DNA from: Imbricaverruca yamaguchii
Taxonomy: Eukaryota > Arthropoda > Thecostraca > Neoverrucidae
Length of the DNA: 64,000 nucleotides
Direction: 5' to 3'
Assembly (NCBI GenBank): GCA_034440575.1
Contig: JAOTOL010001570.1
Coordinates: forward strand, 326,001 to 390,000
The notes below the pieces were generated by a model. It made no database searches. It was not told where the DNA came from and worked only from the letters and a program-made list of their open reading frames with translations. Within the stretch, counting starts at the first letter, position 1. Each line of letters opens with the position of its first letter. Positions 13,211 to 64,000 of the stretch are shown here, one piece after another. Position numbers and translations under genes: made by a program.

Positions 13211-13286
13211 ATTTAAATATCAATGTGAACGTGTTGCTAGTTTCACGTACGTAACAAATCCTCAGAAGACACTTTTCCTCGACAGC

Positions 13287-13590
13287 GTATCATAACCTCC
13301 ACAGTTCATAACCTCCACAGGTTACAACCTCTATAAATTCAACACATCGCAGCGGTCGTAACCTCCACAGGTTATAACCTCCACAAGTCACAACCCCCAC
13401 AAGTCCACAGCGGTCATAACCTCCACAGGTCGTAACCTCCACAACTCCGAAGCGGTCATAACCTCAAAGGTCATAACCTCCACAGGTCGTTATCCACACA
13501 GGTTGCAACCTCCACAAGTACGAAGCGGTCCTAACCTCCACAACTCAGCAGCGGTCATAACCTCCATAGGTTGCAACCTCCACAGATTCA
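13287..13590 (+). repeat. Minisatellite, AACCTCCACAGGT family (left arm)
   Basis: Short units of the type CATAACCTCCACAGGT alternate with spacers such as AAGTCCGAAGCGGT. The higher-order order of variants matches the reverse complement of 23,000-23,351. Confidence 0.85.
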
Positions 13591-22989: not shown

Positions 22990-23351
22990 AATTATGTAGT
23001 TCTTGAATCTGTGGAGGTTATGACCGCTTCGGAGTTGTGGAGGTTAAGACCTGTGGAGGTTACGACCGCTCCGTACTTGTAGAGGTTGCAATCTGTGGGG
23101 ATTACGACCTGTGAAGGTTATGACCTGTGGAGGCTATGACCGCTTCGGAGTTGTGGAGGTTACGACCTGTGAAGGTTTTGACCGCTGCGGACTTGTGGAG
23201 GTTACGACCTGTGGAGGTTATGACCGCTGCGGACTTGTGGAGGTTGTGACCTGTGGAGGTTATGACCTGTGGAGGTTACGACCGCTGCGATGTGTTGAGT
23301 TTGTGGAGGTTGTGACCTGTGGAGGTTACGACCTGTGAAGGTTATGATACC
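22990..23351 (-). repeat. Minisatellite, AACCTCCACAGGT family (right arm)
   Basis: The reverse complement of the left-arm array, including the same variant order near the outer end. See the foldback candidate. Confidence 0.85.
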
Positions 23352-27087: not shown

Positions 27088-27711
27088 ATGGGAAAATTCA
27101 ACAACAAACGGAAACACTTCCCGTCGCGTGGTGGCGGCAGGGGCGGCCGCGGCGGACCCAATCGAAAGCGGGCACGCGGTGCGTCCCGGGACAGCTCCAG
27201 GGGCCGCAGTTCTCTACCGACGTGGAAGCCGGCGTCGGACCGTGAACAGCCCGCTCCGACGTCGGCTGCGGCGCCCGCCGCCGCTCCGGCGTGGCCGTCG
27301 GAGAGCGAGAGCGAGGAGGAGCCGTCGGCGCTGGAGCAGGTGCTGCGGCTGGTGGGCGCCGGCACGCGGCGGGCTGTCGCCGTGGAGAGCGACGAGGACT
27401 CCGACGAGGAGGCTCGTGATGGGCGGGAGCGAGACTCCGCAGCGTCTGGCATCGGGAAGGATGCGTTGGTGGCTGGTGAGAGTGACGAGGGTGTGGAGGA
27501 TGTCGAGGAGGATAGTGATGATGACGTGGATGATCATAGAAAAGATGGTGGAGGTGGCAAAGGTGAAGTTGAAGTTAAAGATGCAGGAAATGATGAGGAT
27601 TTTGTTGATAGTGAAGCTGAGGAACAGGAACAAAGTGATGCTGATGATGAGGATGAAGAAGATGGTGGGATGCAGGACGATACCCATGTCACAGATGCAC
27701 AGGATTCCGAG
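27088..27711 (+). CDS. UTP25: UTP25 exon 1
   Basis: It encodes the ATG start, a [13 protein letters not shown] basic patch and the acidic low-complexity region. It is CpG-rich at the 5' end and ends GAG|GTATGC in phase 0. Confidence 0.9.
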
Positions 27712-30700
27712 GTATGCATTTACTATAATAAGTACGAAACTGGTCAGTATGTATTGTTCACATTTTGGATAGAAATGATCAAAAGTACGATGGAAAGCTT
27801 TTGGCTGCTAGCCATCTTCAGTTCAAGCATGCATTTATGTTGACAACCTCTGTCTTAGTTCGCTTTGCTTACTGGATGGTGTCTTAATTTAGTGGTATCC
27901 TTTGCAGGAATTCTAAAGAAACGTTACCATTGTCCAATCAGCACATTCCGGACATTCACTTATTTCTCTGGTGCATCTGGGTCATGACTGATTCCAAATT
28001 CAATGTAATAAATATATTATAATGGAGTTATATATACTTTGTATCCAATGGTACTATAATGTATCAGTTTCGTTAACCTGTCCTGCGAACTTTGTTATCA
28101 GGACGCACCCACCACCTCATTCGCACATCACTTCGAGGTGAACCTGCCAGAGTCGGTGGGCGAGGTTCTGCAGAAGTCCGTCAGATGGCAGACGGAGCGC
28201 GAGCAGTGGCCCCAGCTTGGCGCGATGGCCGTGCAGCACCGGCCGGTGGAGGCGGCCGCTGCGCCGCCGTCGGCCGTCTCGCAGGTGGACGAGGTACAGC
28301 TGTTCAGCCGGCCTGTGCTTTCCAGACGGGACCAGCTGGAGGCGTACGGTGTTCGGCACCAGATCGGTGAGTGGCTGGACGGGGCGGCGGCCTGAATAGT
28401 CGGGCGGGGCTCCAGACGGTGCCAGCCCGAGGCGTACGGTGTTCGGCACCAGATCAGTGAGTGACGGGACTGTGGACTGTGAATAGTCTGGTGGGGCTCC
28501 CGACGGGACCAGCCGGAGGCGTACGGTGTCAGCTTGGAGATCGATTAGTAGTGGGACAAAGTGTCTGGTGCACAGCACACTATCACCGGGTGTCGTAACC
28601 AGACATCCTAGTGCATTTTTTACCTCTGATGCGGCAATCAGCTGCGGTATGGTCCTCTTGTGGATTGTTTCAGTTTAACACTGTCCTATTGTCCTGTTCC
28701 CTCCAGCGCCGGAAGCCTTTATCGGCTTTAATCCACGGAAGATGTTATGCTCTTTAATCTGTAGCTGGTGGTAGTTCATTGATGCCTGTAATGGACAACT
28801 CCTAAATACGGTTGTATCTGTCCTACCACATGACTCGAAGTTGGCCCAGCGAATCTGAGCAGAATACCAGCTCAACGCTCAGACTCAAAGCTGAAGACGC
28901 AGAAGGAGCTCAAAGCTGAAGACACGTGTCATTACCATACCGCATACAGTGTGGTTTGATTTGATCTTGAAATACTGCAATACATGATGTTTTCAGTAGC
29001 CATGAGCAGGCTATGGATGCGTGAGAGGCAGAGGCAGAAAAACGGAAACAGAAACAAACAGAATCAGAGACAGAAACAGAGGCAGATATTGAAACAGACA
29101 GATGTAGGCAGCACTAAGTCACGAACTTTTTGTGATGTGCACCATTTTCGATTTCCAGTGTTATGTAATCAAAGCTCTGCCTGTATTGAGACAATGTCTG
29201 TACAATTGAATATGGCTTGAATGTAAAGGAAACGTGCTCGCGACTGTGCTTTCGATGTGTGCATGTGTGCTTGCTTTCTGAGACCTTTCTGCATGCAGCG
29301 CACACTTGGCTTATTGCACGGCCATGTCACGACGGCTTAGTTCGTGCCGACTCACGCGCGGCCGTTTTCCAGCCGCAAACGTGTCGGCGCTAAACGAGGA
29401 GCTGTTCTCACGTCCCGTGACAGAGCTACAGCAGGAGGTGCTGTCCGTGGTCGGCGAGTACCGCGACCTCTACTTCCCGCACAGGAGTGCGCACAACGGG
29501 GACGAGCTGCGCGTGGTGAGTGCCGGCCGCAGAGGTCGACACCGGGTCCTCGACAACTCTGGCGGAGGCGTTCACGAGGCTGAGATGCGGCCGTCCGGTG
29601 AACTGGTGACTGTGGTGGCGCGGCGCGCTGATGTCTGTTCAGATGGCATGTACGTGGAATGTGAACACAACCTGTCCTATTGTGATGGCTACAAAACCAA
29701 TGATCGGTTCGTAGCCATTGCACTGAATGTTTGTGCATGGTGCTGACTGCCACGTTGTATCTTTATATCTTGCATGCACTTAGCCTAGCTTATGTTGCAT
29801 GGTGTTCGTGGCAAAACGGTTCTGAACTCTTGTGTCTCGATTTTGGCCCGTGTTTTAATCGTGCGTCATTCTTCATTACAATGCATTGTCCAGATTAGTA
29901 TGTATATATACCATGTATAGCGTTACCTTGTTTACCGTGGGGTAGCCGAAGTGCACTACCCCATCAGCAAGATAACGTTGTCTACAGTTTGGTCAGTCGG
30001 AGGTTCGGAGTGAACAGACGTTGTGAACGTGTGTTCCGCAGGCGTACTGTGCTCACGCTCTCAGCCACGTGCTGCGGACTCGAGCGCGCATCATCCACCA
30101 CAACTCGAAGCTGTCCAAGAAGGAGGAAGTGCCGGACAGCTATCGTGATCAGGGGCTGACGCGACCCAAGGTCCTCATCGTGGTGCCGTTCAAGCACTCT
30201 GCCTTCAGGTGGGCTCTGCGCAACACGGAAAGGGCCGCCCGATCAGTCGCATTCAATTGGATGCTTACGACTGGCTAGGCCATCGGGCCTTAGCCGAAAG
30301 AGGGGAAACTCTGAGTTTCTGGAGAAGTGAGATCATATGGAGATATTGCGAACTGGTGTAAAGTGTATTATGTGCTTTGTCTTCGAAATGGTATTGTGTT
30401 TTACGAACATTAAGGAACAATTTATTTGATGACCAAAATGAGCAATATTGCATCAGCTAATTCGAAGATATATTTTTTATCATGGGCTAGGAATGTGACC
30501 TCCAATGACATGAAAAAAAACAACTCGTTATATATTCTAGCTGACGTTATTTAGGCCAAATTTGATTGAAATTTGGTCTGGAGAAAGGACAACCCGAATA
30601 CATGCCAATAGTTTTGACGTCGTTGAAGGTGTTTTCCTAGTCGATGAGCAACTGTCTTGACAAAACCACGCAGTTGACGCGCGTTTCTGACGTTGCACGC

Positions 30701-33700
30701 GTTTCTAGATCCAAACACCTGTTGTGAAGTAATGACGGCGCCGTGACTCCAGCCGCCCCACACCACCTACCTGATGCCGCCGCTGTCGCAGGATCATCAA
30801 CACGCTGGTGTCGCTGCTACAGCCGACCGGCCACAGCAGCGTCATGCGCTACAAACGGTTCGTGGCCGACTTCGGCGACGGCGGCCAGCCGCCACCGGCT
30901 TCGGTGCGCGCGCAGCGGCCCGCCGACTTCCTGGCCACGTTCGCGGGCAACACTGACGACGCGTTCCGGATAGGGCTGCAGGTGAGCGGACTCCGCACCC
31001 GGCGTAGTTGGTGGCTGACTGAGGCTGCAGGTGAGAAGGCAGGGCATCTGCCGTAGTCGGGAGTTGACTGGGGCTGCGGGTGAGAAGGCAGGGCACCTGT
31101 TGTAGTTGGTGGCTGACTGGGGCCGCAGGTGAGCTGCAGCTGCTGACGCGCTGCTACTGCAGGACCGAGGAGCTCGGGTCTAACAGTCGGGTGACTTGAT
31201 GGGTGACTTATCCACCGTGCAAGATGGTGCTGGAGTATGCACATGGCTCGCGGCTTCATCGGTCGCCGCTCAACCAGTGCACCGAATACACGTTGGAGTT
31301 GTTTCGACTCGAAATTCAGAAGCTACAGCACTTCACGCGCTATCTCGAGTTGTTTGGCATCACTGGTACTAGCCACCACACACTCTAGGAACACTCGTGT
31401 TCTCGGCAGCTAAACACCAACTGTCTTGCGACATTCTGGAGGCGTTTGGTCGCAGCCGCCCTGCAGAGCCGTGACGTCACCCTCCTCGTCTGTCGTCAGA
31501 TCACCAAGAAGAGCATGCGTCTGTACAGCGACTTTTACCACTCGGACGTGATAGTGACGTCCCCGCTGGGCCTGCGGACCGTGCTGGGGGCCGAGGGGGA
31601 GGCGGACCGCGACGTGGACTTCCTCAACTCCATCGAGCTGCTCATCCTCGACCAGACCGACGTGTTTCTGGTGAGCATGCAGATGTGATGAGTGGAGGGG
31701 AACGTTAGGTGCGGAATGTTCGTGAGCGCCGGATTGCAGTGGCAGTGAACAAACGATTCTCAGACGGACAGTTCTCGTCCGCTGTCAGATAAAGGGGTCT
31801 AGCCGTCAGCTCAGCCTTGCCTGTGTGTGGTTGCCTCATGAGCAATGCATTCTCTTCCTTTTTCATCAGGATTTTATATGGGATGGTCAATGATCGTGAA
31901 TCAAAAGTTAGGCCAAATTTATTTGTTGAACGTCTGGATTTGCCCAGACCATTAACAAAAAACTCGATTGCCGCGACAAGCACTGAATTTTACAGCATTT
32001 TTATTTCCTTTTTGTCGATTTGGAAGCGCATTTATCTGGATATTTCCAGTGTTCTCGTTTGACATGTAATGTGGGTGTGAGTGGTTTATGGATCGGTAGC
32101 CTACCTCCGATAAGAAAACAGCCATTTGAGATTGGTAAGGAGGAACTTATGGTCTGGTCAAGAGTAGTAAGGAGCTTAGGATTTGGTCATTCTCAAGATG
32201 TGCACTCACATCCCATTGTAACCACAATAAATGAAGATATATTGTTTGGCTTTTATAAGTACCCCACCAACCACCCTGCCTCACTGACTAGTACCCATCA
32301 CGTCCGCAGATGCAGAACTGGGAGCATGTACTGCACCTGATGGAACACCTCCACCTGCAACCTCGCGACTCACATGGGGTTGACTTCTCGCGGGTGCGCT
32401 TCTGGTCGCTAAACGGATGGCAGCGCCTCTACCGGCAAACGCTGGTATTATCGGCCGTGCCCACACCTGAGATAAATGCACTGGTCAGCAAGAACTGCCT
32501 GAACTACGCCGGCCGTGTGATTGTGGAGAACCCCGAGGAGGTCGGCACGATCCAGCAGGTCGTGGTGCAAGTGCCACAGGTCAGTGATTCGCCATAGGTG
32601 TCAAGTCAGTGATCCGCCGCCGATGTCGCAGGTCAGTGGTCCGTTATAGGTGTCTCGAACAGGTCAGTGATCCGCCATAGGTGTCGCGGACAGGTTAGTG
32701 GTCCGCCGCCGGTGTCTCCGACGGGTCAGTGACCCCTTTCATGTGTATTGGACAGGTCATTGCTCCGCCACAGTTATCACAGGTCAATGATCCGCTACAG
32801 GTGTTTTGGGACGGGTCAGTGATCCGCCATAGGTGTCACGGAGTAATGCCGTGCAGCCGTTGCTCGGGTACAGGTACCACATGGAGGCAGCATTGGGTGT
32901 TGTCACCAGACACACTCCACGGGCAGCTCTGCTGTCTTCAGTCCCCCTCCCCTTACAGTGAAGACGTCGTCAGCAGACACACCATACGGGTAGCTCTGCT
33001 GTCTTCAGTCCCCTCCCCTTACAGTGAAGACGCATTTTTCTACGTGAAGCATCAGGCTCTATTGATAGGCATTCACCTGCGACATATAGGGACCTTTCCT
33101 TTCACTATTCCTGGGCCGCCAATGTCTGGTGACGTGATAAGCGGCTTAGTCTGTTGGTGAGTTACTCTGAGATGTCTTGAATCGTGCTATGTATGTCATC
33201 AGAAGAATGGTGTTTTTTTACTTGCTTTGTTGCTGACGTAGTTTAAGCAGTGGCATTTCCGCTGACGCCGACAGCGCCACCCAGGAAGCCCAGTCTATGT
33301 GTCCGGCTAATGTCATGGAATTTCATGCTACGTGTCCGGCTAATGTCAGGGAATCTCATGCTACGTGTCCGGCTAATGTCATGGAATCTCATGCTACGTG
33401 TCCGGCTAATGTCAGGGAAACTCATGCTACGTGTCGGGCTAATGTCGTCAGGGAAACGCAGGCTACGTGCCCAGCTAATGTCAGGGAAACTCAGGCTACG
33501 TGTCCGGCTAACGTCGTCAGGGAATCTCATGCTACGTGTGAGGCTAATGTCAGGGAATCTCATGCTACTTGTCCGGCTAATGTCGTCGGGGAAACTCAGG
33601 CTACGTGTCCGGCTAATTTCGTCAGGAAAACTCATGCTACGTGCCTGGCTAATGTTGTCAGGGAAACTCTGACTATGTCTCCGTTTAATGTCGTCAGGGA

Positions 33701-36700
33701 GACTCAGGCTACGTGTCCGGATAATGTCGTCAGGGAATATCATGCTACGTGTCCGGCTAATGTCGTCAGGGAATATCATGCTACGTGTCCGGCTAATGTC
33801 GTCAGGGAATCTCATGCTACGTGTCCGGCTAATGTCGTCAGGGAAACTCAGGCTATGCGTCCGGCTAATGTCATCAGGGAATTTCATGCTACTTGTCCGG
33901 CTTATGTCATTAGGATTGGATTGGATTGTGGCTTTACGACGCCCTCAGCAGCTGAGGCCATACAGCGTCGCCTGCTTCTCACCCTGGCAGGAAGGGCGGG
34001 CATCGCGGGGGATCGAACCCGTACCTCTGGTTTGCCAGACGCTCAGCTTAACCACTGAACTAACGACGCCCCGCTTATGTCATTATGGAATCTCATGCTA
34101 CGTGTCCGGCTAATGTTGTCAGGGCAACTCAGACTACGTGTCCGGCTAATGTCGTCAGGGAATCTCATGCTACATGTCCGACTAAGGTCGTCAGTCCCCA
34201 TAAAATGGGTGCGGGATGACGAGTAGATGACGAGCAGGCCATCACCTAAGTTCTGGGGTGTTTCCTTCCACCCGGCACTGTACTGGCACCGTTTTGCTAA
34301 CGCCACCAACACAGCCCCACTGCCCAGCGCAATCGCCCCTCCGCTCAAGCTGGTCTGCTCACTTCTGCTGAAACACTGCTGCAGCGATATGGAGTCATCA
34401 CAGGTGACCCGCTGCCTGCGGACGACGCGTGATCGGTTCTCAGCGCAGCGCGTTTGCCCCCTGTACTGACCCCTCTGCCCGCTGTAGGCGTTCCACCGGT
34501 TCTCGGCGGACAGTGTGGTGTCGGAGCCGGACGAACGGTTCCGCTTTTTCGTGGAGAAGGTGTTGCCGCAGTACCGGGACGTCCAGATGAGCCATACCCT
34601 GCTGCTGGTGCCGTCCTATTTCGACTACGTGCGGATCAGGAACCACTTCATCAAGGAGACGGTCAACTTCGTGCAGGTCTGCGAGTACACCAAGGTCAGT
34701 GGCGCGGGGCTGGGTGGCCGGTTGTGAGAGTGTTGAACTCTGGGTACGAGAGTCTCTTGTTCGGCACTCGCACCATTCGAGACACTTGTCAATTCCGCGG
34801 CATTCCGTCGAAAACTATCGTGGTTGTCATCATTTGGCGTGGCAGGCGGCAGCACATGAAGCGCGTCATTAAGAAACAAAAATTAGTTCGATGCGCTGCT
34901 GCACACGTAGAACACTCGCGAAGTAATATCGTATCTGTTTTGCATGTTGGGACGGCACTGAGGTTGTTTATGCAGAGGCTCAGACTGTTAATGCTAGTAA
35001 TCACATGATGTTAGCCAGCGACAACGTGGCTAGCCTCCATAGTGGGTGAATGAGCTTAATCTCGATGCTTGTCACGTGTGTGTGAGACATGCAAAAAATA
35101 CATGATGCGGTAACACAGTTTCCGCATCATGAAACCGACAACATAAGTGGTCGATGCTTGACGAGTAGATCCGGAGCATTATGCTTTGATGCATGGCACG
35201 TACTGCCCGTACATGCTACCTTTTGACTTAATTCGATGAGCTTGCTTCATCTTGCTACACCGAGGGTTGTGGTTTAGACCGGAACACCCCCACCACCATT
35301 ACCACTGCCATGTCCAGAGCTCGACTGGGACTCGCTGAACACGCCGTTCTCTGTCAAGGTTATGGTGGGCACTGGACGTGACGACCTCGAGGATTTTGCA
35401 GGATACCCGCGTGAGTCGTGCCCGGGACATGTTTTACCACGGGAAGCGGCACTTTCTGCTGTATACGGAGCGCTTCCACTTCTTCCGCCGCTACCGCATC
35501 AAAGGCATTCGCCACGTGGTGTTCTACGGCCTACCAATGTACCCGCACCTCTATTCGGAGATCTGCAACCTCATGCAGGTGCGTGCAGGCAGTCCTCAGG
35601 CGTCGAAATGCAAACATTTGTGCCATGGGGTTTGCTGGTCGTTTGCATGTTGAGAATGTACTTGCTTTTATCTCGTAACTATGTCGGCTCCAAAATAGGT
35701 TTGTGTGTTCAGGCATGTGGGGCATTCCACGACAAATCGACATGTGACCTGCACCCTCACATCTCAGATTTTGATGAAAATGGTTCTATAGGGTTATCAG
35801 CATCGCTGAACACGCCTGTGCCATTTTGAAGTCTCTTAGGTTTACCGTTTTCTAGTTATGAACTATATAATTTTTACATTTTGCACTGACATGACTATCT
35901 TTGGTGCTAATTTTCTCTGAGTCATTTTTCAGTAACTGAACAAATTTATACGTCAAAATGAAGACAAAACATTGAAGAATATGACTATGCCACCATTTAA
36001 ACTTTCATTACGTAATTTTTGCCGACTCTAGCCAAATAAAAAATTGAAAAGAAATAAAAACATTTTTCCCCTCCGTTATCGTAATTTTTCTCCCTTTCAT
36101 ATGAAAGAGTGTAGTTTTTTACCCTAGAAACATAAATAAAAAAGTGGTTATCGACTTGGAAAGACGAATCAAATGCGGTGAATGCGGGCGCTGCGCTCAC
36201 CGGACCGGCGCGCGCGCTGCCGCTGCCTCGCGATACGCCTGCCGGGGGAGGGGGAGGGGAAGGGGGAGCCGAGCGTGGGATGTCAAGAATATGTCCTGGA
36301 AAAAAAGACTATGTGACGGTAAGAGATGAGAATGGGGTTAAAGTAAAGAAGCAGAAACGTTTGATTTTAGGTAATTTGCAGGAAATTTACCAACTTTATA
36401 AAGAGAACGGTAGCAACCCGCGCATTGGGTTTTCTAAGTTCGCCAGCCTCCGCCCCAAACACTGTGTCCTGTTGGGAAGCAACGGCACTCATACGGTTTG
36501 TGTATGTTGCTATCACCAGAACGTTAAGCTAATGTTAGCGTCTCTGGGCTTAAAAGACATTACCTACAAGGACCTGTTGAAGCACGCGGTTTGTGATGTC
36601 GGGAGGGAAGCCTGTATGCTGCAAAAGTGTGAAAACTGTCCAGGTCAGGACGGTGTCAGGTCATATTTGATCGACACTTTAAATGCGCAGGCAGGGGAAA

Positions 36701-39043
36701 TCTCAGACTTGGTGGACGAAGTCAGATTTAGTCAGTGGCTAAGCACGGATCGTTGCACTTTGACCGAAATTGTTCTTCCTATGGACGAGTTTCTTGACAA
36801 ACTGTCTGACGCCATTGTGACACTTACTCGGCATCATTTCACGAGTCAGCATCAAAGCAAATATTTCGACGATCTAAAAAAGCAGCTACCTGAGCATGAA
36901 GCACTGATCATATTAGATTTTTCAGAAAACTACACTTTTGTAGTTCAAGACGAAATTCAGTCATATCACTGGAACGCACCACAGTGTACCGTTCATCCGT
37001 TTGTTGTTTATTGGCGAGAGGCTGGAAAGATTGAATGCCACAGTTTTGCGTGTTATCAAACGAACTGAAGCATGACACCGTCGCTGTGCACACATTCTTG
37101 CAGCACATTGTACCGAAAGTGAAAGGCATAGTCCCGAACTTGAAAAAGATTCATTATTTTTCGGATGGGTCAGCTGCCCAGTACAAGAATAAGTTTAATT
37201 TCGTGAATGTGAGTTTTCATGATGAGGATTTCGGAGTCCAGTGCGATTGGAATTTTTTGAAACGTTGCATGGGAAAAAAATCGTGCAACGGTGTTGGGGG
37301 GTACACTGAAAAGGGTTGCAGCTAGCGCCAGTCTTTCGCGGACACACTCGGACCACATTCTTACTGCGGAAAAGCTATGTAAAGTGCTACAGGACAAGGG
37401 TAATTTGCATACCGAGTGCTACTTTGTAGCGAAAGAAGAGGTTAGTCGTACACGGCATGAGCTTGGCGATAGACTGTCAATGGCAAAAACTGTCAAAGGG
37501 ACTCTAAAAATACACAGGGTAACTCCAGTGAAGGCAAACATTGTCGTTGTGCGAGAACTTGCCATAAGTGAAGGAAGAGAAGTGATGGTGGCCTGATTTG
37601 CTACAGGATTTAGGTTGAATGGTTAGCGTGACCTACATCGGCAGCTGATTTCCGTTTGTTTATGTGCGAATTACAATGTGAAGTGAGCTAATGTTAAGTT
37701 ATGCATTTTGTACCTCTGATAAGGCTCATTGTACCATCTCGTTAGCATTCGCAAATGTACATGTACTTTCCGGCTTGTTATTTGTGTGAATAACAAATGA
37801 AGTGCTAAAACGTCCTGCCTGGTGTTTATAAATAATCTGCAGTGTCCTCTCAATCCCACGGGGCCGCGGACGACAGCCGCCAGCACCCATATCCCCCGTT
37901 GGCAGCAGCTGGCCGCGGCCGTTGCTGAACGACGCCGTATTGGGTAAAATGAGGCCGGGCGGTTGGTGTTTGAAATTATGTTTAAAATATTTATAAGCCG
38001 ATAACCACTTTTTTTATTGATGAAATATAGGTAATAATCAACGCTCTTTCATTAAAAAATATCAAAAATCACAATATCGAAGGGGAAAATTGCTCAAGAG
38101 AAATTGGCATTTTTTTAAGTGTTATATTTGACATATATTTAATTGCTATGGTTTCGATAGTGATAAACGTTCATTCTGCATGGGATTGCAATCATTTTGA
38201 TGTACAAACTCACCTACTTATCATTCAATGTAGCAGGGATAAATCCTGCCAAACAAAGCCATGTATGCATCGAATGTAAAAATGTCGCAGGCTGTAGCTC
38301 GAAAACCGGAAGTCGGAGGGGCCTGAAAATGTCACAGGCGTGTTTAGGGCTGCTGATAACCCTATAGACTCATTTTCATCAAAATCTGAGATGTGGGGGT
38401 GCAAAATCGAAATTTTATTTGTCGATCTGTCGTGGAACGCCCCATGTGCGTCTCAATCCTCGATTTGAAATGGCTTTCTTTTCTCGCTGTCTCACTGGCC
38501 TGGGCCGTATTGGTACATCGACGCCACATGAGGTAAACGGCGCACTGTTGAACTGTGAGTTTGCGGTTGAACGCTTGGGCACAGTTCTACGCGAACGTGT
38601 ATCTTGAATTGGCTAGGTCATGCAGCTCACAGCATACTCCTGACTTGCGCAGAGGACCCGCTACAATATACGTCACAGATGCTACTTCAGCCATGTGGTG
38701 TACCGCAAATAACGCCCCACTGACTGCAAAGCCCAGGACAACTGTGAAACGCCATTCATGTTCTGGTTCGAAACGACTGTCATGCGCCATTCGTGTACCC
38801 GGCTTGAATCTCCATCCATCTGCACAAACACCTCCAAAAGCGTGACGTGCTGTCCATTCCTCGCTGCAGGATGTGTACCAGAACCCTCGTGCCGACCAGA
38901 CCGGAAACTCGAGCACCACCGTCACTGTGCTCTTCTCCAAGTTCGATCGGCTCAAGTTGGCGCGCGTGGTCGGCGTGCAACGGGCGACATCTATGATCGC
39001 CGCCGATAAGCAGGTGCACATGTTCGTCACCGGCGAGTCGTGA
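27088..39043 (+). CDS. UTP25: UTP25 small-subunit processome component (ten exons)
   Basis: UTP25 (DEF, digestive organ expansion factor) is a nucleolar protein of the U3 snoRNP/SSU processome needed for early 18S rRNA processing. Joining ten exons with GT-AG junctions and consistent phases gives about 795 codons; the human protein has about 756. The N-terminus (about 1-208) is an RGG/RS-basic segment followed by a long Asp/Glu-rich tract. The rest is the conserved helicase-like core without a Walker A motif: [38 protein letters not shown] (the degenerate DEAD-like position), then [50 protein letters not shown] and a C-terminal VLFSKFD...VVGV block. All conserved blocks are present in order with no frame breaks, so the gene looks functional. 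The start is chosen at the first in-frame ATG after a stop-free leader. The gene is convergent with the Robo-like gene. Confidence 0.93.
28102..28366 (+). CDS. UTP25: UTP25 exon 2
   Basis: The acceptor is TTGTTATCAG. It encodes the [11 protein letters not shown]...[12 protein letters not shown]...QLFSRPV region, which aligns with the segment after the acidic tract in animal UTP25. It ends ATCG|GTGAGT in phase 1. The last ~46 bases and the donor are copied downstream in the intron. Confidence 0.9.
28411..28543 (+). repeat. Two intronic copies of the UTP25 exon 2 end and donor
   Basis: The exon-end sequence from TCCAGACGGG to the donor recurs at 28,411 and 28,498 (spacing about 90 and 87 bases). 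The first copy keeps GGTGTTCGGCACCAGATC and GTGAGT. The second loses the donor. Confidence 0.85.
29373..29515 (+). CDS. UTP25: UTP25 exon 3
   Basis: Acceptor CGTTTTCCAG, entry phase 1. It encodes [20 protein letters not shown] and the conserved YRDLYFPHR motif. The donor is GTG|GTGAGT, phase 0. Confidence 0.9.
30042..30208 (+). CDS. UTP25: UTP25 exon 4
   Basis: It encodes [18 protein letters not shown] through the strongly conserved [16 protein letters not shown] motif. Acceptor GTTCCGCAG, donor TTCAG|GTGGGC, phase 2. Confidence 0.92.
30792..30981 (+). CDS. UTP25: UTP25 exon 5
   Basis: Entry phase 2. It encodes IINTLVSLL, a KRFVADFG segment and [20 protein letters not shown], matching the conserved 'F-GN-DD-FRIG' block. 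Donor CTGCAG|GTGAGC, phase 0. This donor is repeated downstream. Confidence 0.92.
30969..31135 (+). repeat. ~50-bp array carrying the exon 5 donor
   Basis: Three copies follow the true donor. GGCTGCAGGTGAG or a close variant recurs at about 31,022, 31,072 and 31,121, with GTAGTTGGTGGCTGACTG between copies. Each keeps GTGAG. Confidence 0.88.
31500..31670 (+). CDS. UTP25: UTP25 exon 6
   Basis: It encodes [27 protein letters not shown] and [14 protein letters not shown]. The last is the degenerate DEAD-box position of the family. Phase 0 at both ends, donor CTG|GTGAGC. Confidence 0.93.
32310..32579 (+). CDS. UTP25: UTP25 exon 7
   Basis: It encodes [43 protein letters not shown] and a QVVVQVPQ end. 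Phase 0 at both ends. The donor CACAG|GTCAGTGAT seeds the array that follows. Confidence 0.93.
32572..32841 (+). repeat. ~27-33 bp array carrying the exon 7 donor
   Basis: Nine units of the type GTCAGTGATCCGCCATAGG follow directly from the true donor. At least six of the nine junctions keep AG|GT. Unit length varies with small indels. Confidence 0.88.
32881..33020 (+). repeat. Two tandem ~66-bp units
   Basis: The word GCTCTGCTGTCTTCAGTCCC followed by CCTTACAGTGAAGACG occurs twice, nearly identical, in intron 7. Confidence 0.85.
33290..34200 (+). repeat. 33/36-bp minisatellite in UTP25 intron 7
   Basis: More than twenty units built on GGCTAATGTCGTCAGGGAA plus TCTCATGCTACGTGTCC. Unit lengths are multiples of three, so long open frames exist on both strands without being genes. 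The array is split by a SINE at 33,913-34,072. Confidence 0.92.
33913..34072 (-). mobile_element. tRNA-derived SINE with 13-bp target-site duplication
   Basis: On the - strand it begins GGGGCGTCG, has box A TTAGTTCAGTGG and box B GGTTCGATCCC, then a non-tRNA body and an (ATTGG/CCAAT)n tail at its 3' end. Perfect duplicates of GCTTATGTCATTA at 33,900-33,912 and 34,073-34,085 flank it. The duplicated word is part of the minisatellite unit, so the insertion is younger than the array. Confidence 0.92.
34488..34694 (+). CDS. UTP25: UTP25 exon 8
   Basis: It encodes [49 protein letters not shown] and VCEYTK. Acceptor CCGCTGTAG, donor AAG|GTCAGT, phase 0 both ends. Confidence 0.93.
35402..35578 (+). 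CDS. UTP25: UTP25 exon 9
   Basis: It encodes [40 protein letters not shown] and [15 protein letters not shown]. Acceptor GATTTTGCAG, donor CAG|GTGCGT, phase 0 both ends. The 3.3 kb intron that follows contains a DNA transposon. Confidence 0.93.
35719..38443 (+). mobile_element. TIR DNA transposon in UTP25 intron 9
   Basis: Both ends read GGGGC(A/G)TTCCACGACA in inverted orientation. The arms stay colinear inward for about 435 bp (35,719-36,153 and about 38,009-38,443), ending near AAAAAGTGGTTATCG. The four bases ATGT lie immediately outside each end and are a likely 4-bp target-site duplication. The arms are clearly diverged from each other (indels, many substitutions), so the insertion is not recent. 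The element carries one broken transposase-like gene in the same direction as UTP25. Confidence 0.85.
36280..37596 (+). pseudogene. Frameshifted DDE-like transposase gene of the TIR element
   Basis: The frame opens at ATG 36,280 and runs to a stop at 37,066-37,068. Similarity continues in another frame over about 37,059-37,290 and returns to the first frame from about 37,291 to 37,596, so two compensating single-base-type shifts are needed. Landmarks are a Cys-rich middle ([26 protein letters not shown]), [10 protein letters not shown]...IQSYHWN, and [17 protein letters not shown] recall these from an unnamed transposase-like family common in aphids, Hydra and other invertebrates. The two Asp positions fit an RNase H-fold (DDE-type) enzyme. 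A GKxxCxGxGG motif near the end has Asn where family members I remember have Asp. Superfamily not assigned. Confidence 0.7.
38597..38684 (+). repeat. Dispersed ~88-bp repeat (copy at 45,239)
   Basis: GTATCTTGAATTGGCTAGG followed by CATGCAGCTCACAGCATACT and CCTGACTTGCGCAGAGGACC is nearly identical at 45,239-45,326. One copy lies in a UTP25 intron, the other in a Robo intron. Confidence 0.85.
38870..39043 (+). CDS. UTP25: UTP25 exon 10 (terminal)
   Basis: Acceptor CTCGCTGCAG, phase 0. It encodes [32 protein letters not shown], and ends HMFVTGES followed by TGA. The ending matches the 'VHLFISE' type C-terminus of the family. Confidence 0.92.
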   Translation, partial: DVYQNPRADQTGNSSTTVTVLFSKFDRLKLARVVGVQRATSMIAADKQVHMFVTGES

Positions 39044-40721
39044 CGTCAGCGAAAGTGTGGCTCGGCAGACTGTGTGTGACGCTGAGGACGAGAGTTGGCA
39101 TGTCGCCGGTGAGTTGTGACGTCACAGATGACTGCGCTGTCTGCAAGGTGTGGTCGTGGAGGAGGTGTGCACTGGAGGCTCAGTTATGTGTATGGCGATG
39201 AGAGACGGAGGTACTGACAGACGCTGGGGCATGCATTTGGGCGTTGACTTCTTGAGCCAGGATGTGTGGTATGGTTGGAGTGGTGAGAGGTTTTGCTCGA
39301 ACTATGCAGGCTGCATGCATTTGTGATTCATCATTGTTACCGTTGTAATGCAAGACCATTGCCAACATAAATGTGAAGTGCCTAACGTGTATCTAATGAA
39401 TAAGTTTGCATTGGCATCACTTCCGTGTCGGTTTGGTGTAATGGCAAAAGGCGCAATAGCTTTCGTGGAGTCCAGTGTGGATACCGAACGTCCAGTATGG
39501 TTGGCGGTCTTTACTGCCCGAATGACACACCAGCATTGAGCATGTACAGTAAGACAAAGCCATGTACAGTTTTCTACATTTGCCTTCCTTTGTATTACAA
39601 AATGTCCTGGCATTACCACTTGAATGCGCTGGGCAACCATTGTCAACTGAACACCCTGGTTAACGCGTCTGATTCTCTCGTATATCACAACAGTATTGCA
39701 AACGTAGAGACGACACCCGCGACACACCGGGAACTGATGACCGATCTGGCCGCCAGGGGCGCTAGCTTCCCGGTGGCGGGTTGTCCCAGCGTTGATAAAC
39801 GGACAACACTAACATGCAGCCGACTGGGAGCACTAAGTATGCTTAGGTGCATCTGATGATTCCATTAAATGTACATATATTGCATTACTTACTTCTGATC
39901 GATATGTGCAAGCGATATTTGGCAGTAATACCAGTGAAAATCACGAAAGGTTTCCCTCGGCGGGCTGACTGATATGATGCATGATACCGTAGTATAAAGT
40001 TGTGGCTAGAGATCACGAGAGGGGTCGGGGTCCGGAATCCCCCGGTCTGGTACCCTGCTGATGTTAATCTTCCCCAGGCAATCCGAAAATGTCTTGAAAA
40101 TATTGACTCGAGCCCACACCTGACTTCGTGACATTTCCAGCTCTGTATAGAGTACAACCATTTTAACCGTTCCCGATCACGCAAAATCAAAGGGGGAATT
40201 CAGTCATCTACGCGCATAATCGACGGATTGCTGACATGCTCTCAATCGCATTATTGTCCAGTCCACACTTTTCTCGCTGAAGTGCCTCATCTCAGCGCTT
40301 ACATTGCTTGATAGGAAGTCATTTCTGTGCTGTCGCTGCTGCGGCGTTGTTGCGGAGGCTTCAGAGCGCCGCTTCTGCCATCTGTCGGTGTGCCGACCAA
40401 GTTTCGGTTGCAGACGTCGCTAGTGATGAAGCTGTGGCGGCTGGGGCCGGGGGTGCAGTAGGCGGAGTCGGCGCTACACAGGGACTGGGTGCGGCTGGCT
40501 GGAGTCCGGCCCGTACCAGATATGACGAGCTGCAGATGAAAGCGACAGCGATTGTGCGAGCACTGTAGACGGACTGAAGGGAAGAGGGTGGAGGCTAGCC
40601 GGAATTGTTAGTGCTGCAAAAGTGATCTAAGATTGCTATTTCTATGCAACGCCATAGCTAGAGCCCTAATGCTAAGCATTCACAACTCTTGTACTAGGCG
40701 TTCCACGTCAAAAAGGTGAAC
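39044..40721. other. Convergent intergenic region between UTP25 and the Robo-like gene
   Basis: It should hold the UTP25 3' UTR (an ATTAAA hexamer lies at about 39,863) and the Robo-like 3' UTR. Bases 40,020-40,140 are similar to 49,930-50,045 (a dispersed repeat). A GC-rich patch at 40,310-40,570 has a short open frame without recognisable content. Confidence 0.5.
39098..39125 (+). repeat. Diverged copy of the UTP25 stop-codon region
   Basis: GTCGCCGGTGAGTTGTGACG at 39,098 repeats GTCACCGGCGAGTCGTGACG of the coding end (39,026-39,045), about 72 bases downstream, in the 3' UTR. Confidence 0.65.
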
Positions 40722-61353
<20,632 letters not shown>

Positions 61354-62604: not shown

Positions 62605-63354
62605 ATGCCGGGGCCCGGGAGGGAGGACTCTGTTACGGCAGCGCGAGTGGCGGACGAGTCGCCGGCCGGTCAGAAGTTTGACCCGCGCCTGATCGACACC
62701 TTCGACGGAACCGGCGACGCCGTGGGCTGGTACACGCAAGCGGTCCTGCTGTGCGAATGCCGGGGTGCGTCGCCTGCGGATGTGCTGCCGATGCGCCTGA
62801 GAGACGGCGCGTTCGTCATCTGGCAGCAGCTACCGCCGGAGGACCGCCGGTCGCTCGACCGGGTCCGGGACGCGCTGTTCGTGGCGTTCGGGATGGACGC
62901 CTGCGAGGCGCACGCGGCGTTCACGACTCTCCGACTCCAGGACAACGAGGGCGTCAATGTGTTCCTGACGAGCCTGCAGAAGTACGCCGCCCTGTTCGGC
63001 GGCGTGTCGGACCAGCAGATGGCGGCCGCGCTCGTGAACGGGTTACCCGCGGCCGTTAGTGCTGTCGTGCTGGTGGGAGCCCGGCCAAGAGAAGCGGATC
63101 TGCTCAGCACGCTGTCACGCGCACGCACGGCGTTGAAGGCGGAGAGGTGTCGCGCAACCGAGGAGGCCGCGATCGTCGCTGCTACCGCTGCTTCAGCCGC
63201 GGTCGGTGCCACCGCTGCACGACGTCTGACCTCGGCCCTGCGGCGGCGCTGTTGGACTTGCGGCGTCGTCGGTCATTTCGCGGTCGCCTGCCCGCAACGA
63301 GTGGGAAACTCCGCCGGGGGTGCGCCAGCGCAAGCGCCGTCTCCGGAGGTGTGA
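62605..63354 (+). CDS. Retrotransposon gag-like protein
   Basis: A 249-codon frame. It contains FDGTGDAVGWYTQAVLL, WQQLPPEDRRSLDRVRDAL and FLTSLQKYAALFGG, typical of Gypsy-type gag, and one CCHC zinc knuckle near the end (CWTCGVVGHFAVAC). The structural protein would assemble the particle and bind RNA. The frame is intact. Confidence 0.75.
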   Translation: MPGPGREDSVTAARVADESPAGQKFDPRLIDTFDGTGDAVGWYTQAVLLCECRGASPADVLPMRLRDGAFVIWQQLPPEDRRSLDRVRDALFVAFGMDACEAHAAFTTLRLQDNEGVNVFLTSLQKYAALFGGVSDQQMAAALVNGLPAAVSAVVLVGARPREADLLSTLSRARTALKAERCRATEEAAIVAATAASAAVGATAARRLTSALRRRCWTCGVVGHFAVACPQRVGNSAGGAPAQAPSPEV

Positions 63355-63692
63355 GCGCGCTCCCGGTGGTGGAAATGTCTGTGGACGGCGTGGCACGTCT
63401 GGTACTGATAGACACGGGACGTACCGATGTGCTCAGCTACGTCGGGTGTTGCTCGACGTGGTATCCGAGGTCGATGGTGCTACGCGCCGTTAATGAGGGG
63501 ACGCTGAGGTGCGTCGGCGTCACGCGTGTGGTGGTGGCCTACCAGGGCAAGCGGGTTACGCTCGCGGGCCTGGTGGTGCCGGAAAGACCGCTGGGCGTGG
63601 ACATGATTATGGGCATGACCGGGGTGACGGCGCTGGGAGGCGTCGTTGATTTGCGCAAGGCGTACTTGCAGCTCCGGCTGGACAGACGGCTG
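63355..63692 (+). pseudogene. Protease and RT start of the Gypsy-like element (internal deletion)
   Basis: In the -1 frame relative to gag. The protease active-site motif is LIDTGRTDVL (DTG), followed by GVDMIMGMTGVTALGG, the usual C-terminal 'ILG' region. Six bases later the frame reads DLRKAYLQLRL, an RT palm motif. The normally long linker and RT N-terminus are missing. The frame starts upstream inside gag and ends at a TGA. Confidence 0.7.
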
Positions 63693-63695
63693 TGA

Positions 63696-64000
63696 CCGTA
63701 TCAGACGGTCGAGGTTCCCCGACAGCGGTACTGTCTAACACGGATCGGATTCGGGCTCAACATCACCCTGCTCGTGATGAAGGCCGTCGTGAAAGCTGTG
63801 CTGCTCCGCGACCGGGACGTGTCCCGCGGCGTGTTGCCCTACGTAGATGATCTGCTGGTGGACGAGAGCGTCGTCAGTGCAGACTACGTGGTGGCGCATT
63901 TCGCGAGGTACGGCCTGGCGTGCAAGCCACCGGAGCGTGCGGCTGCCGGGACGCGTCTTCTCGGGCTCCGCGTGAGCCCGAATCAAGAGGGCGCGCTCCA
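63696..64000 (+). pseudogene. Reverse transcriptase palm fragment
   Basis: In the same frame after the stop. It contains the RT block around YCLTRIGFGLN, the catalytic YVDDLLVDE (YXDD) and a CKPPERAAAGTRLLGLRV thumb-proximal segment. It continues past the window. No further stop is seen. Confidence 0.75.

Follow-up and report, generated by a model that had tools for sequence, protein, structure and literature searches.

Mirage-like tandem arrays at exon-intron boundaries in the barnacle Imbricaverruca yamaguchii

Mirages and related repeats

Tandem repeats located at exon-intron boundaries have been named mirages in amphioxus (PMC3087553, PMC3902484), where the genes concerned include Adh3, the globin genes BflGb6 and BflGb9 and, as cited in PMC3902484, TnC. 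According to PMC3087553, mirages seemingly leave regular splicing undisturbed; that paper also mentions their length and somatic instability and proposes that introns are gained from them. Repeats spanning splice sites in the lancelet PGBD5 gene have likewise been compared to mirages, in an account that also cites troponin C (PMC3902484). Several other systems share part of this pattern. Intron gain at AGGT proto-splice sites (the Rogers model, with potato RdRp and Drosophila as cases) also involves tandem duplication with splice signals, and intron gain by tandem duplication is the subject of PMC2891723 and PMC4974935. Genes in human segmental duplications contain minisatellites with a mean unit length of about 30 bp, some of which lie at exon-intron boundaries; in recent paralogues these give rise to new introns or to alternative transcripts (PMC2812944). 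Ordinary intronic minisatellites or VNTRs consist of tandem intronic units of similar length but do not require an exon edge; those of C. elegans are linked to alternative splicing, without exon-edge copies in that account (PMC4039745).

The window analysed here, meaning the whole stretch of 64,000 nucleotides from I. yamaguchii, contains tandem arrays closely resembling the amphioxus mirages, which corrects the statement of the first-pass annotation that no named system of this kind was known. In both animals, the units include an exon edge with its splice site and measure 10-160 bp, the copies are intronic, the reading frame is intact, and 5' and 3' boundaries are both hit (five donors and one acceptor in the barnacle window, four of each in a sample of kinase exons). 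The exon-proximal splice site of the barnacle genes is probably used despite the arrays, in agreement with protein homology, and amphioxus mirages are reported to be harmless to splicing. The two cases differ in that the barnacle is an arthropod, whereas the name has so far been applied to cephalochordates, and in that some barnacle arrays are long (about 47 units). Unlike proto-splice-site intron gain, the barnacle duplications lengthen existing introns; and unlike the human paralogues, the proteins of the two barnacle genes, which have barnacle orthologues, are apparently unchanged. Among the matches listed for the open-licence literature, we recognised no report of mirages in a barnacle or another arthropod, which is weak evidence of absence. 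As far as these searches show, the barnacle arrays are of the mirage kind in a new phylum: mirages were known from amphioxus, in genes studied one at a time, and their occurrence in an arthropod is new.

Exon-edge duplications in UTP25 and a Robo-like gene

The arrays lie in two genes on opposite strands. The features of the first, UTP25, are as follows.

27088..39043, + strand: UTP25 (digestive organ expansion factor homologue), 10 coding exons
27088-27711, 28102-28366, 29373-29515, 30042-30208, 30792-30981, + strand: UTP25 exons 1-5
31500-31670, 32310-32579, 34488-34694, 35402-35578, 38870-39043, + strand: UTP25 exons 6-10
28321..28529, + strand: mirage-type array at the exon 2 donor, 90-bp unit, 2.4 copies, 46 nt exon overlap (TRF)
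30973..31133, + strand: mirage-type array at the exon 5 donor, 49-bp unit, 3.3 copies, 9 nt exon overlap (TRF)
32576..32842, + strand: mirage-type array at the exon 7 donor, 31-bp unit, 9 copies, 4 nt exon overlap (TRF)
33295..34194, + strand: free 36-bp array in intron 7, two blocks, without exon edge (TRF)
39026..39124, + strand: single duplication of the stop region, 39026-39048 against 39102-39124, 20/23 bases identical

The UTP25 frame is intact over 795 aa, with GT-AG introns, and Pfam Utp25_C matches in three of its exons. In a search with residues 280-795, identity reaches 84% with Pollicipes pollicipes and 81% with Amphibalanus amphitrite; all nine junctions align with the proteins of these two barnacles, with a two-residue gap at junction 6 in the Pollicipes isoform. 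These matches place the source of the window among thoracican barnacles other than these two species, and they argue against amphioxus, which had been considered in view of its mirages. The 36-bp array of intron 7 is divided into its two blocks by an insert (33909-34072) resembling a tRNA-derived SINE. Intron 9 contains transposon-like reading frames, seen by eye, at 36178-37600, the main one without a Pfam match.

The second gene is Robo-like and extends past the exons modelled here.

41232..61353, - strand: Robo-like gene, exons A-G
61353-61211, 60725-60474, 57962-57728, 47411-46923, - strand: Robo-like exons A-D
44246-43879, 42670-42478, 41641-41232, - strand: Robo-like exons E-G
55933..57746, - strand: mirage-type array at the exon C donor, 35/46-bp units, about 47 units of 35 bp, 19 nt exon overlap (TRF)
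47479..47543, - strand: free intronic 16-bp array, 68 nt upstream of the exon D acceptor (TRF)
45340..45469, - strand: free intronic 12-bp array, without exon edge (TRF)
44225..44372, - strand: exon E acceptor (44269-44225) and one upstream duplicate of acceptor and exon start (44372-44328)
43269..43910, - strand: mirage-type array at the exon E donor, 71-bp unit, 9 units, 32 nt exon overlap (TRF)
42628..42893, - strand: mirage-type array at the exon F acceptor, 77-bp unit, 3.5 copies, exon start included (TRF)
42213..42478, - strand: array at the exon F donor, 34-bp unit, 7.3 copies, TRF start at the last exon base

Exons A-G join in frame across all seven. A search with the encoded protein returned two matches in all: Amphibalanus LOC122370648 (38% identity, 98% query coverage) and a Pollicipes roundabout homolog 3-like protein (67% identity, 33% query coverage). 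Junctions A/B, B/C, C/D and D/E align well with the barnacle proteins, and E/F and F/G weakly. In a Pfam scan of exons A-D, exon A matches I-set above the cut-off and exon D matches fn3 just below it, with no match in exons B and C. Exon G contains a long glycine run within its coding sequence (41257-41378), from a CCGCCA-type repeat.

All eight exon-edge duplications named by the first-pass annotation in UTP25 and the Robo-like gene are real and lie where it had placed them. Against 500 dinucleotide shuffles of the adjoining sequence, a test that covered six of the eight, the score was reached by no shuffle for five of them (the donors of exons 2 and 7, the stop region of UTP25 and the acceptors of Robo E and Robo F) and by 1/500 for the exon 5 donor; at the Robo C and E donors, which lay outside this set, TRF counts about 47 and 9 units. 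The stop region and the exon E acceptor, which had been listed with the minisatellites, are single duplications. Eight extra donor copies were recognised by threshold at Robo E and three at exon 5, the same numbers as claimed; at exon 7, for which 8 copies had been claimed, five were recognised by threshold (TRF gives 9 units). Similarly, one extra copy was recognised by threshold at exon 2, against two copies claimed, and 44 extra copies, 43 of them with GT, at Robo C, against about 45-50 claimed. Three arrays had been set apart as lacking exon edges, and those at 33,290 and 45,338 are indeed free intronic arrays by TRF, but the one at 42,240 begins at the exon F donor, where five extra donor copies were recognised by threshold.

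The number of crossings was compared with uniform placement of the arrays, one unit of overhang into exons being permitted. TRF arrays of period at least 9 and score at least 50 merged into 15, touching 15 introns. Of these 15, six cross an exon edge, at five donors and one acceptor, whereas uniform placement predicts 0.83 (P=1.5e-5), a P-value that is not a fair test because the window is the discovery set that prompted the question. Expected values, here and in the kinase sample, are calculated with the shortest TRF period found in a merged array, up to a maximum of 60 (for Robo C it is 11); this choice makes the expectation somewhat lower. At higher score cut-offs the crossings are 6/11 and 6/10 arrays; a seventh array, at the exon F donor, adjoins its edge and stands outside the six.

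Array-edge association in a sample of kinase exons

An independent sample was drawn from a protein-kinase profile search of the 767,457,503-base assembly (1430 contigs), which gave 136 matches, 72 of which were used. These comprise 16 of the 30 loci cut by the search (the other 14 being near-full-length) and 56 taken roughly by score; some rows were skipped, several of them with a stop within the match, and the selection was made blind to, or regardless of, arrays. Exon edges were called from the profile ends together with splice-site scores, using a generic matrix of animal donors and hand-set acceptor scores. This procedure gave 125 edges, 92 of them above the cut-offs (35 donors and 57 acceptors), near which 76 arrays were counted.

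Arrays cross eight of the 92 edges, where uniform placement predicts 2.87 (P=0.003); over nine settings, the crossings range from 5 to 9 and P from 0.0025 to 0.023. They fall on 4/35 donors (in loci L019, L043, which has two, and L068) and on 4/57 acceptors (L040, L050, L051 and L076), and from a reading of the edge sequences we judge all eight to be genuine. In L043, 33-bp units repeat the coding end and donor of the exon whose end encodes the kinase HRDLK motif, while at the L076 acceptor a 110-bp array extends 72 nt into the exon. A rate test compared the density of array ends on the 75 nt of the exon side with that found 121-960 nt into the intron: in six settings the ratio is 2.0-3.3 (P 0.014-0.044), and in a seventh, with a far zone of 61-700, it is 2.06 (P=0.060). 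The count of arrays against junctions that the first-pass annotation had proposed thus yields an excess when run on this sample (8/92 against 2.9), but a modest one, with P=0.06 in one of the seven rate settings. We regard it as moderately supported that the edge excess extends past the window, at this modest size.

The two kinds of edges differ in their profiles. At donors, array coverage is 0.03 at -150, 0.00 at -100, 0.06 at -60 and 0.14, the intron level, at -10, +1 and +150, and exon-proximal array ends occur at 2.0/kb from -60 to -3, 0.46/kb from -2 to 60, 0 from 61 to 240 and 0.5-0.6/kb thereafter. At acceptors, coverage is 0.00 at -150 and -100, 0.02 at -60, 0.07 at -10 and +1, about 0.2 from 40 nt in and 0.21 at +150, and the corresponding ends occur at 0.92/kb over the edge, 2.26/kb from -2 to +60 and 0.5-0.7/kb beyond 120. 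These profiles therefore point to an edge effect at donors and, at acceptors, mainly to closeness to the exon; part of the signal may reflect nearness to exons rather than the edge itself.

Some arrays near kinase exons carry, by eye, donor-like and coding-like units on the opposite strand (L024:1-907 and L026:1-795, the latter with a 35-bp unit, for example), and these are perhaps mirages of opposite-strand genes. At L031:66-1532, a 46-bp array of about 30 units reaches the start of the kinase match, and no acceptor was found there.

Tolerance, mutation and decoy sites

Many tandem arrays lie in the introns of this genome, and some of them start within an exon, so their units carry the copied exon end with its splice site. 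We consider it likely that they are mirage-type minisatellites, in which duplications straddling a splice site are tolerated as the exon-proximal site stays in use and the copies are spliced out. A short tandem duplication in this position would be nearly harmless because the exon-proximal copy would be spliced as before and the extra copies would lie inside the intron; within the exon, the same event would alter the protein and be lost. From two copies on, slippage or unequal exchange could extend the array. The exon-proximal donor is probably the site in use, given that the exon-proximal junction is backed by related barnacle proteins at UTP25 exons 2, 5 and 7 and at Robo C. Tolerance alone predicts no excess at edges, whereas an excess over uniform placement is observed (about 2-3-fold in the kinase sample and higher in the window), which weakly suggests an added local cause; this might be a mutational bias at splice sites or GC-rich exon flanks.

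Mutation linked to splice sites, for example breakage through R-loops, U1 or polymerase pausing, could itself preferentially make tandem duplications at exon-intron boundaries, an alternative that we hold to be unlikely. The excess in both the window and the kinase sample speaks for it, as does the rise of donor array ends to 2.0/kb at -60 to -3 against 0-0.6/kb deeper in, but acceptors are affected as well, the counts are small, and free arrays are not enriched in sense-strand donor motifs. For R-loops in particular, the sense strand is G-rich in each of the six window donor arrays, counting that of exon F, but there is no clear support in the comparison of sense-strand G-skew between ten donor arrays from the window and kinase sample and free intronic arrays (Mann-Whitney P=0.28), and two of the four kinase donor arrays have positive G-skew. 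The first-pass annotation had inferred a process favouring boundaries; the association that it noticed holds elsewhere, at about 2-3 times the intron background in the kinase sample, but a mutational bias toward splice sites is possible and unproven. A broader proposal, which we find doubtful, is that in some animal genomes, those of barnacle and amphioxus independently, tandem duplications arise preferentially at splice sites, where a process coupled to transcription or splicing would seed minisatellites and feed intron growth and new intron positions.

Chance combined with ascertainment would account for the pattern if, in a minisatellite-rich genome, some arrays touch edges and a rich window was noticed. 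Arrays are indeed very common, as the 76 near 92 kinase edges illustrate, the window is richer than the sample, and one of the seven rate settings gives P=0.06; the kinase edges were not picked for arrays, however, and still show eight crossings against 2.9 (P=0.003) and a 2.0-3.3-fold ratio in the rate tests, which makes this explanation quite improbable. An assembly artefact is extremely unlikely: tandem arrays are error-prone in assemblies, and one amphioxus mirage was apparently misassembled in a draft, according to PMC3087553, but the barnacle copies vary in substitutions and unit length (a 35/46-bp mix at Robo C), the flanking frames are intact and the pattern recurs on several contigs.

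Selection to maintain decoy splice sites had also been suggested by the first-pass annotation. Such sites might act as U1 sinks or serve alternative isoforms, for example, but this explanation appears very unlikely. At Robo C (41/44), Robo E (8/8) and L019 (26/26), as this reading favours, most or all copies equal or exceed the score of the real donor, but the fraction of such copies falls through L043a (8/10), L065 (14/24, with doubtful donor placement), exon 7 (2/5) and exon 5 (1/3) to none at exon 2 (0/1), Robo F (0/5), L043b (0/25) and L068 (0/17), giving no uniform sign over the 11 arrays; high identity of the whole unit accounts for the retained donors with no need for selection. Translation continued beyond the real donor at UTP25 exons 2, 5 and 7 and at Robo C and E meets an in-frame stop within about 30 residues, which precedes the first decoy in exons 2 and 7 and follows it in exon 5, Robo C and Robo E, whose unit lengths (49, 35 and 71) are not divisible by three. 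In these five cases examined, use of a decoy would therefore spoil the protein. Decoy sites need no function under any mechanism test made. Donor core columns have fewer mismatches than other columns in 8/11 arrays, a figure that carries no inference because the other columns of exons 5 and 7 lie partly outside the array and the L065 donor is placed about 21 nt too far.

Two further origins were considered. Seeding of arrays by any donor-like motif is unsupported on the sense strand, where such sites in arrays off exon edges are not denser than outside (0.78/kb inside against 0.85/kb outside). Antisense donor-like sites in these arrays reach 2.53 against 0.64 per kb outside, the sites being repeated and non-independent; our guess is that this excess comes from a few arrays of opposite-strand genes, such as those in L024 and L026. 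An origin from mobile, introner-like units seems less likely, as the units of edge arrays repeat their own exon end.

With 8/92 sampled kinase edges bearing an array, the cases are numerous enough for a test of whether tandem duplication is drawn to splice sites. The barnacle arrays also allow one to ask how strong decoy donors, present by the dozen, are disregarded in splicing, and whether such arrays contribute to the lengthening or the gain of introns. Amphioxus is highly polymorphic. Extreme nucleotide diversity is reported for Balanus improvisus (PMC8270832), and polymorphism, common to both, is a trait worth testing.

Repeats of other kinds were seen by eye in the window. The same 16/42-bp satellite (CCTCCACAGGTCATAA type) occurs at 13277-13566 and again, in the reverse orientation and at a distance of about 10 kb, at 23009-23347, as though the two bracketed a single element. 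A near-identical repeat of about 85 bp is present at both 38598-38683 and 45239-45325. Finally, 62605-64000 contains a gag-like ORF with a zinc knuckle (PF00098), followed by sequence resembling a reverse-transcriptase region.
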